Shown here one piece after another: positions 48,528 through 59,578 of a stretch of DNA of 64,000 nt. The DNA is from Candidatus Tectimicrobiota bacterium (lineage in GTDB: Bacteria; Tectomicrobia; Entotheonellia; Entotheonellales; Entotheonellaceae), in NCBI GenBank assembly GCA_026005175.1, contig BPKO01000009.1:62001-126000 (forward strand), read 5' to 3'. Under the pieces are notes generated by a model. That model worked only from the letters and a program-made list of their open reading frames with translations, was not told the origin of the DNA and did not search any database. The position numbers were made by a program, and so were the translations under genes. Every line of letters begins with the position of its first letter. The first letter of the stretch is position 1.

Positions 48528-50264
48528 ATGAGGCAGGCAGGACCCTATGCGGTGGTGTGGCCGCGCGGCAAGAAGGCCGTGGCCTTGCGGCCGCTGGCCC
48601 GGCGTCTTGACACCCTGGCCGGCAAGACCATTGGCCAGCTCTGGGACTACCTCTTTCGCGGCGACGAGATCTTCCCCTTGCTGGAAGAGGGGCTCTCGGC
48701 CCGCTTCCCCGGCGTGCGCTTCGTGCGCTACGACGTCTTTGGCTCTACGCACGGTGCCGAGGAACACCGGGTGCTGGCCGAGCTGCCGGCCAAGCTCAAA
48801 GCGTACGGCGTGGATGCCGTGATTTCCGGCATGGCTTGCTGAGGCAGCTGCACGCCCGCCGTGCTGCGGGCCAGCGCCGTGGCCGAGGCGGCCGGGGTGC
48901 CCACTTCTTCCCTGGTCTGCGAGGGCTTCCTGCAGCAGGCCGCCACCACCGCCGCCGGCCTGGGCATGCCCACTTTGCCCACCGCCCTGGTGCCGGGCCA
49001 CGTCGACGTGCAGACGCCAGAAGAGCTGCGCCGGCACGTGCTCACCGTGACTCTCGAGGAGGTGGTGCGCAACCTCACCACCGCGCCGGCCGAGGCCCAC
49101 GCCGAAGCCGAGCCGCCGCCGCAGGAAGTCATCTTTCGCGGCAGCTTCGAGGAAGTTAACCGCTTCTTTTACGAGCAGGGCTGGAGCGACGGCCTGCCCA
49201 TCGTGCCCCCCACGCGAGACAAAGTAGAAGCCTTCCTGCGCTTTACCGACCGCGACGCCGCGGAAGTGCTCGGAGTGCTGCTGCCCGACAACCGCCAGGC
49301 CACGGTGTGGAACGTGGCGGTCAACGGCGTCATGGCCGGCTGCCGCCCGGAGTACATGCCGGTGCTGGTGGCCCTGGCCGAAGCCATGGCCGACCCGACT
49401 TACGGCGTCGAGCACAGCGGCAACACCCCGGGCTCGGAGACCCTCATTATCCTCAACGGCCCCATTATCAAAGAGCTCGGCTTTAACTACACCCAGGGGG
49501 CCCTGCGCGACGGCTTTCAGGCCAACACCAGCATCGGCCGCTTCTGGCGCCTCTACTTGCGCAACGTCGCCGGCTTCCTGCCCCACCGCACCGACAAGGC
49601 CACCTTTGGCAACACCTGGCGCGTGGTGCTGGCCGAAAACGAGGAGGCCTTAGCCCGCATTGGCTGGCCGCCGCTGAGCGTCGAGCGCGGCTTTGCCGCC
49701 GGCGACAACGTGGTGACCATTGCCCGCTACACCGGCGGCACGGTGCTGGCTTCGGCATTTGGCAGCACGGCGCAGGAGATTCTGCCTTACCTCGCCGACG
49801 GCCTGGCGCGCCTGGTGGCCTGGGAGCTGTGCTTCACCGTGGGGCTGGCCACCGGCACCCAGAAGCCGCTGCTCCTTCTCACTCCGGTGCTGGCCGAGAC
49901 GATTGCCCGCTCGGGGTTTTCCAAGCAGGACGTGAAGCGTTTCCTGTACGAGCACGCGCGCCTTCCTGCCTGGAAGTTCGAGCGCTACGTGGGCGAGTGG
50001 ACGAACCTGCTGCCGGGCCACCCGACGCTGGCCGAGCTGGTGGCGCGGGGCCAGGCGCCGCCGCAGTTTGCCACTTCGAGCGATCCCGAGCGGCTGGTGC
50101 CCATTGTCTGCGAGCCCGACGACTTCCAGGTGGTGGTGAGCGGCGATCCCCTGCGCACCAACGCCTACGTCTTTGCCCACAACGGCCTTTTGGGCTTTCC
50201 CACCAGCAAGGCGATCCGCCTGCCGGCCGCCTGGAAGCGCTTGCTGGATGAAGCAAGGAAGTAG
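48528..50264 (+). CDS. UGSC family selenoprotein with in-frame UGA (Sec105)
   Basis: ATG 48528 has GGAGGAG 6 nt upstream. The frame meets a TGA at 48840-48842 and continues open to 50264, giving 578 residues if the TGA is read as selenocysteine. Around it the sequence is SGMAC-U-GSCTPAVLRA, the signature of the UGSC (seleno)protein family known from metagenomic selenoproteome surveys. The N-terminal part (about 1-185) is the UGSC domain (LAGKTIGQLW, FPGVRFV, VPTSSLVCEGF). The rest (about 205-578) starts FYEQGWSDGLPIVPPT, a block seen with this family; its function is unknown. U-G-S-C is a CxxC-like redox motif, so a thiol/selenol redox role is likely. A GC hairpin begins 11 nt after the UGA. 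selD is in the same window. Confidence 0.9.
48854..48871 (+). promoter_or_regulatory. Candidate bacterial SECIS element of the UGSC gene
   Basis: GCCCGC (48854-48859) pairs with GCGGGC (48866-48871) around the loop CGUGCU. The loop begins 17 nt after the UGA and has a G at its second position, which fits the bacterial SECIS rules I know. The loop ends in GUGCU, as in the hairpin after the selD UGA. Confidence 0.7.
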
Positions 50265-58415: not shown

Positions 58416-58431
58416 AAAAGCCCCGGCTTTT
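58416..58431. terminator. Intrinsic terminator-like hairpin between selD and the PLP enzyme gene
   Basis: AAAAGCC (58416-58422) pairs with GGCTTTT (58425-58431). It lies downstream of selD on the minus strand with a short T-run; on the plus strand a T-rich stretch follows as well, so it could act in both directions. Confidence 0.5.
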
Positions 58432-58528
58432 TAGCACTTTTTTTAAGTGGTTGCAATACGCCACAAATCAATCCACTGTCCGCTACGGCCGGACCCTCCC
58501 CGACGCCGCGGCGGCTCGAGGGCGCAGG

Positions 58529-59578
58529 CTACGGCAGCACGACGAGCTCGGCCGGCCCGGCCTCCACTTCGCCCACCACCGCTGCGGCGGAGACGCCGCG
58601 CGCCTGCAAGGTGGCCACCAGCGCCTCGGCCTGCGCCGGGGGCAAGGCGATGAGCAGCCCGCCGGAGGTTTGCGGGTCGAACAGCACCCGCACCTGCTCC
58701 GGGCTCAGGCGGGGATCGAGCTGCACGTGCCCCTGCGTGTACTCCCGGTTGCTCACGTCGCCGCGGGTGAGGTAGCCCCGCCTGGCAAAGTAGAGGGCCT
58801 CCTCGAAAACGGGGATGGCGGTGGCGCGCAGGCGCAGGCGCACGCCGCTGGCGCGGGCCATCTCCCAGGCGTGGCCGAGCAGGCCGTTGCCGGTGATGTC
58901 GGTGGCCGCATGCACCCCGTGCGCCAGCATCGCCTCGGCTGCCACGTCGTTGAGAGTCCACATGCTTTCGGCCACCCGCGCCACCAGCTCCGGGGTGCCC
59001 TTGCCGGCTTTGAAGGCGGTGGTCAGAATGCCCGTGCCCAGCGGCTTGGTGAGCACCAGCCAATCGCCAGGGCGGGCGCCGGCGTTGGTGACCACGCGCT
59101 CGGGGTGCACAATGCCCGTCACCGCCATGCCGTACTTGAGCTCTTTGTCGGTCACCGTATGGCCGCCGATGACCGCCACCCCGGCGGCGGTGGCGCGCTC
59201 CTGGCCGCCTTGCAGGATGAGGGCCAGCCCTTCGGGGTCGAGCTTTTCCGGGTAGCAGACGATGTTGAGCGCCGTGAGGGGCTTGGCCCCCATGGCGTAG
59301 ACGTCGCTCAAGGCGTTGGCCGCGGCGATGCGCCCGTAAGTATATGGGTCATCGACGATGGGGGTAAAAAAGTCCACCGTCTGCACCAGGGCGAGCTCGT
59401 CGCTGAGCCGGTAGACCCCAGCGTCGTCGGCGGTCGACGTCCCCACCAGCACACGCGGGTCGTGCTGCGGTGGCAACGAAGCCAGCGCTTGCCCCAGCAC
59501 CGCGGGGCTCATTTTCGAGGCTCAACCCGCACAGGCCACGAGGCTCGTTAGCTTCCACTGCTTGGCTTTGGCGCGCAT
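58529..59578 (-). CDS. selD: Selenide, water dikinase SelD, itself a selenoprotein (Sec19)
   Basis: SelD makes selenophosphate from selenide and ATP for selenocysteine and selenouridine synthesis. ATG 59578 has AAGGAG 5 nt upstream. The frame meets a TGA at 59524-59522 and continues to 58529, 349 residues in all, the normal SelD length. The residues around it are VACAG-U-ASKMSPAVL; Sec19 aligns with the catalytic Cys17 of E. coli SelD and Lys22 with Lys20. Downstream motifs include TADDAGVYRL, VDFFTPIVDDPYTYGRIAAANALSDVYAMG, GGHTVTD and FDPQTSGGLL. A GC hairpin follows the UGA by 13 nt. No selA, selB or selC is in the window. Confidence 0.96.
59491..59508 (-). promoter_or_regulatory. Candidate bacterial SECIS element of selD
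   Basis: GCCCC (59508-59504) pairs with GGGGC (59495-59491) around the loop GCGGUGCU on the minus strand. The loop begins 18 nt after the UGA and starts with G, meeting the bacterial SECIS rules I know. It shares GUGCU at the loop's 3' side with the UGSC gene hairpin. Confidence 0.72.

Follow-up and report, generated by a model that had tools for sequence, protein, structure and literature searches.

In the bacterial SECIS (bSECIS) model set out in the legend to Fig. 2 of PMC13188914, the element lies inside the coding sequence and consists of a 4–16 bp stem and a 3–9 nt loop. As the model is given there, a G stands in the first two loop positions, the loop is 16–37 nt from the UGA, and what the loops share in general is a G with U or G after it (PMC13188914). 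Two selenoprotein families are relevant here. For the UGSC family (NF041046, PF24696) the GOS study reported 255 Sec sequences and 21 Cys homologues (PMC2398784), and a bacterial SECIS has previously been described for Sec-containing selD genes (PMC4561486).

The stretch of DNA analysed (the window) is 64,000 nt of contig BPKO01000009.1 from Candidatus Tectimicrobiota bacterium (GCA_026005175.1), and includes a gene from each of these families. An earlier note, made from the sequence alone, had proposed that the hairpins following the two UGA codons share a GUGCU loop end that represents a lineage-specific SelB recognition motif. From the analyses reported below, it is very likely that both features are canonical bSECIS elements and that probably one SelB reads all of the loop types.

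The UGSC gene and its hairpin

The window gene at 48528..50264 (+) is predicted to encode a UGSC-family selenoprotein, with TGA read as Sec at residue 105 (PF24696, E 1.3e-29). The protein scores 103.9 bits against PF24696, where the cut-off is 25, and is thus a match to this curated family, but its 50.1 bits against NF041046 fall under the cut-off of 125. It shares the UGSC motif and the Sec form with the family as described in PMC2398784, but differs in having a second domain fused to it and a SECIS that falls outside the AGUNU type. The UGSC domain occupies residues 9–184 approximately, and the C-terminal part (49150–50264, +; about residues 200–578) has zero Pfam matches. Near most other UGSC copies, sequence related to this C-terminal part is found as a separate reading frame and, hence, the partner domain appears to have been fused in the window copy. 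An AlphaFold model of the fusion has a mean pLDDT of 87, and in this model the UGSC domain looks Rossmann-like. The structural matches are generic (best Foldseek E 2.6e-3; VIA Z 10.6, 138 residues, rmsd 3.0), and a PDB sequence search with the fusion found nothing better than E 0.1.

Counting the Sec UGA codon (48840..48842, +) as nt 1–3, the candidate UGSC SECIS (48852..48871, +) covers nt 13–32. Its 6 bp stem is formed by GCCCGC (48854–48859) and GCGGGC (48866–48871) and encloses the hexaloop CGUGCU (48860–48865), which is 17 nt from the UGA, 6 nt long and has G in the second position. Its loop, written C-G-U-G-N-U, is without the N1-N2 pair that most loops of the model in PMC13188914 have. 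E. coli fdhF also has a hexaloop (nt 21–26, closed by C20-G27), but there the loop is AGGUCU rather than CGUGCU and the stem is a different one. The hairpin is present in the minimum-energy fold of 41 nt (−22.3 kcal/mol) but not in that of 61 nt, which pairs differently.

The selD gene and its hairpin

The window selD gene (58529..59578, −), encoding selenide water dikinase with Sec as residue 19, scores 385.2 bits against TIGR00476 (cut-off 125; E 2.2e-115). Like the Sec-containing SelD described in PMC4561486, it has a TGA near the N-terminus (59522..59524, −) followed by a hairpin. A SAM-II riboswitch is also found at 58421–58482 (−) in the window (RF01726, 45 bits, gathering score 44), and by eye the gene just downstream of the riboswitch looks like a PLP-dependent sulfur amino acid enzyme.

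In the candidate selD SECIS (59491..59508, −), GCCCC (59508–59504) pairs with GGGGC (59495–59491) around GCGGUGCU, which begins 18 nt after the UGA. The letters that had been read as the loop are right, but they fold as a GGU triloop with two extra pairs, G22-C28 and C23-G27, and a bulged U29, not as an open loop of 8 nt. The element can therefore be described either as 3 nt closed by 2+5 pairs with a bulge or as 8 nt on 5 bp, and the distance from UGA to loop is 18 or 20 nt accordingly; the first loop base is G in both GGU and GCGGUGCU. The bulged U is a difference from the bSECIS model. The 41 nt fold has an energy of −11.5 kcal/mol.

The stems, loops and coordinates in the earlier note thus agree with the letters at both sites, and the rules it applied (a loop G, 16–37 nt from the UGA) hold for both hairpins, at 17 nt for UGSC and 18 or 20 nt for selD. 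Both window elements conform to the geometric rules given in PMC13188914. They lie directly after the Sec UGA and inside the coding sequence, and the energies of both 41 nt folds are below −7.5 kcal/mol, the maximum used in the bSECIS test.

Comparison with chance

A chance level was obtained by synonymous recoding of each gene with local codon usage. Hairpins with bSECIS spacing, a loop G and at least 5 Watson-Crick pairs arose in 42 % of the UGSC recodings and 54 % of the selD recodings, and 13 % of the UGSC recodings had at least 6 pairs. The exact stem was regained in 1.7 % (UGSC) and 4.9 % (selD). The folding energies of the UGSC and selD stretches were also compared with those of shuffles, and none was clearly better folded (z from −1.18 to +0.61). 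From the window alone, the match between the two hairpins is not beyond chance.

Both segments encode Pro-Ala-Val-Leu, as had been pointed out, and the frequency of comparable hairpins on codon resampling, together with shuffles that fold equally well, would fit hairpins that are by-products of GC-rich coding for this peptide and not SECIS elements. GTGCT itself was retained at its place in 65 % of the UGSC and 64 % of the selD recodings, and Val-Leu is written GTGCTG at 11 of its 14 occurrences in the two genes. The shared GUGCU thus follows from Val-Leu and codon usage, and the coincidence through codon choice that the earlier note had allowed for is what the recodings produce.

Codons under the hairpins in relatives

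One scan of the genome collection yielded 79 loci related to the window UGSC gene (58–68 % identity), mostly from Betaproteobacteria MAGs with others from Chloroflexi, Acidimicrobiales and further groups, using the taxon labels of the records. Fused UGSC genes (L072–L150) are common in Betaproteobacteria MAGs and some loci have two copies (L079, L119). When the window is included, TGA is present at 82 of 82 sites examined and a Cys codon at none of them. Codons were aligned for 77 genes, and stem and loop counts refer to the 82 sites; the UGSC set and the selD set described below both include related sequences, so that counts are not independent.

Synonymous heterozygosity at codons +4 to +9 (nt 13–30) is 0.077, 0.075, 0, 0, 0.10 and 0, whereas the mean over 273 conserved columns of the gene is 0.47 (77 genes), and each of these codons is the lowest among all columns of its own amino acid. 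Synonymous variation at codons +1, +2 and +10 is ordinary, and the 9 lowest of the 159 seven-codon windows in the gene all overlap the +4 to +9 block. Leu at +8 is TTG in 72 of 76 genes and Arg at +9 is CGG in 77 of 77, whereas elsewhere in these genes TTG makes up 15 % of Leu codons and CGG 16 % of Arg codons. The stem pairs 16-31, 17-30, 19-28 and 20-27 are invariant at all 82 sites, pair 18-29 is C-G at 79 and U-G at 3, and pair 15-32 is G-C at 77, A-U at 2, G-U at 1 and broken at 2. Only pair 15-32 has changed on both sides (2 of 82 sites) and, hence, the case for the UGSC stem is based mostly on frozen codons and not on covariation.

At the threshold used, SelD was found in 45 of the 48 genomes with a fused UGSC gene, and pooling with five genes of the window's group gave 39 Sec and 11 Cys genes (L070 counted as Cys). 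In the window's group, TGA is present in the selD genes of G003 (76 % identical) and G004 (partial), and Cys in G001 and G002. Nucleotides 22–29 are GCGGUGCU in the window's genome and in G004, and AUGGUGUU in G003; the register of the lower stem is shifted between G004 and the other two. The proteobacterial Sec-selD genes follow a pattern of C20-G30, A/G21-U29, G22-C28 and C23-G27 around a G(U/G)U triloop, a pattern that is lacking in two non-betaproteobacterial Sec-selD genes, L151 and L163. Compared with this pattern, the lower stem of the window element is displaced by one base, and this is why U29 is bulged.

In 34 proteobacterial Sec-selD genes the frozen block covers codons +5 to +10, with zero synonymous variation within the majority residue at +5 and +7 to +10, and codons +4 and +13 vary freely. 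Codon +7 is GCG in 36 of 39 Sec genes but 2 of 11 Cys genes, and codon +9 is CTG in 38 of 39 Sec genes but 1 of 11 Cys genes, the Cys genes being few and partly from one clade. A Cys SelD was seen alongside a TGA-bearing UGSC gene in several genomes (L161, L162, L164, L167, L177, L178 and L189), indicating that Sec was lost from, or never gained in, their SelD and is still used elsewhere.

For UGSC and selD alike, the RNA is therefore conserved beyond the level of the protein, and the hairpins can be considered real SECIS elements because synonymous sites are conserved among relatives. That they are by-products of coding is now very improbable: the synonymous freeze falls exactly over the hairpins with free codons on both sides (77 UGSC and 34 selD genes), Cys-selD genes use other codons at these positions, and the elements of paralogous genes covary (see below). 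A synonymous freeze by itself names no RNA reader, and the frozen codons could in principle reflect some other signal, such as a site for a regulatory protein or ribosome pausing, instead of SelB recognition. However, the location directly after a Sec UGA, the fit to the bSECIS model and the weak constraint on Cys-selD genes at the same place speak for Sec insertion, and this alternative is very improbable.

The proposed GUGCU motif

The UGSC loop is CGUGUU at 74 of the 82 sites, CGUGCU at 6 and CGUGAU at 2, so that base 25 is the sole free position and the window has a minority form. Five of the six CGUGCU loops are from other organisms (L072, L104, L119, L120 and L125), with Proteobacteria MAGs among them, and selD has GCGGTGCTG in L157, L169 and L174; GUGCU is thus not confined to the lineage. 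Nor are the two stretches equivalent, as all five letters are unpaired in the window UGSC element, but in selD the GCU that follows GU consists of two paired bases and the bulge and belongs mostly to the stem's 3' strand. The selD gene of G003 has GUGUU.

Other Sec genes in the genome

The window's genome includes a tRNA-Sec (76.5 bits) and one SelB that scores over the curated cut-off (391.5 bits). Seven UGSC genes, all with TGA, were found together with selD and a SelW-like gene, giving nine Sec sites; the genome is 77 % complete and sites were sought in these families only, and it may hold more. Formate dehydrogenase gave 19 matched pieces in this genome, with an in-frame TGA in none.

The pentaloop (nt 22–26) of the six other UGSC copies is AGUGU in four, AGUUU in one and CUUGU in one. 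AGUCU, found in some UGSC paralogues, is present at nt 22–26 in E. coli fdnG and fdoG. One of the UGSC copies (L006 and L008, G000:C6:86513-86946) is split over two frames at about 86767, and this is a frameshift or a sequencing error. Four relatives supplied further copies, for a set of 24 sequences (21 distinct). In this set the stem 16-21/27-32 is paired in 95.2 % of cells; 15 cells have changed on both sides, a number reached by 0 of 500 shuffles, and slid registers gave 0–3. The covariation is largely synonymous, TGC going with GTG or CTG and TGG with GTC or CTC, and in a second case TCG with CAC and TCA with CAT. The Ser codon in the loop is AGT in 17 of 17, whereas further downstream in these frames AGT accounts for 17 of 148 Ser codons; one false antisense row (L005-) is excluded from the first count and included in the second.

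An RNA model of this short UGSC type (R1) found exactly the six short-type sites in the genome (E 1.7e-11 or better) and matched neither window element; hence, the two window elements are set apart from the other Sec elements of the genome. The seven weaker R1 matches have E values of 0.14–9.6, and two of them start with TGA, neither in an open frame.

The SelW-like gene L256 (G000:C6:33554-33754) has a TGA and an AGUU(U) loop at nt 25–29, and its paralogue L243 has Cys. We examined 13 of the 15 SelW-like TGA matches (L253 and L262 were left out), and two of these 13, L244 and L258, are without a clear AGUNU or CGNGU loop. A 3' strand that always starts from nt 27, as in UGSC, selD and E. coli fdhF, was considered as a general rule and rejected, since it lies three bases later in most SelW-like elements.

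GUGCU is therefore absent from other Sec genes of the genome (the six other UGSC copies and the SelW-like gene), an outcome that the earlier note itself had named as refuting its reading. That both window genes carry it at nearly equal distance from the UGA is what spoke for a SelB recognition motif common to the Sec genes of this organism, but with GUGCU lacking from seven out of nine identified Sec sites, CGUGCU at only 6 of 82 sites in the UGSC clade, GCU mainly paired in selD and GTGCT surviving most synonymous recodings, such a motif is very unlikely. The SECIS-like character of the hairpins stands; the step from similar distance, stem and loop to a special motif does not.

Origin of the fused gene

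Among five genomes of its phylum, no gene other than the window UGSC gene matches at E 1e-62. In a tree it pairs with that of an Acidimicrobiales MAG, near those of Proteobacteria and Chloroflexi MAGs, though the tree (77 rows) is midpoint-rooted with long branches and the placement is unsure. Horizontal transfer of the fused gene appears likely from these comparisons. A contaminating contig is disfavoured because selD, about 8 kb away, is closest to that of a relative in the same family.

Discussion

Judged on the sequences, both window elements appear to be ordinary bSECIS elements in genes of selenoprotein families already known. One SelB presumably recognizes them, and GUGCU is not a special code. 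From the known pathway we infer that SelB binds the hairpins and that Sec is inserted at the UGA. When a ribosome arrives at the in-frame UGA, SelB carrying Sec-tRNA-Sec and GTP would bind, through its C-terminal domain, the hairpin that follows closely within the coding sequence, and Sec would be inserted so that translation is not ended. What the elements have in common would be the general bSECIS pattern of a small loop with G within two bases, mostly followed by U or G. The loop types would be a CGUGNU hexaloop in the fused UGSC gene, a G(G/U)U triloop in selD, and mostly AGUNU in the other UGSC and SelW-like genes, and the single SelB found in the genome would read all three.

We tentatively raise, as a possibility that falls short of even chances, that the element of the fused UGSC genes (GCCCGC-CGUGNU-GCGGGC) is a distinct bSECIS subclass. 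It would be almost invariant in sequence across 20 nt, loop base 25 alone being free to vary, and would have passed from one phylum to another along with its gene (labels in the records: Pseudomonadota, Chloroflexota, Actinomycetota and the small phylum of the window). The SelBs reading it would also accept AGUNU and G(G/U)U loops. If this were so, a SelB would have to accommodate three or more loop shapes within a cell.

When coding DNA is GC-rich, codon usage can make two hairpins look alike. A sharply delimited run of frozen synonymous codons after the UGA makes a strong case for a SECIS without experiment, and on this basis two more bSECIS elements are confirmed. With nine Sec sites, at least three loop types and one SelB found, this single genome offers a natural test set for the requirements of SelB.
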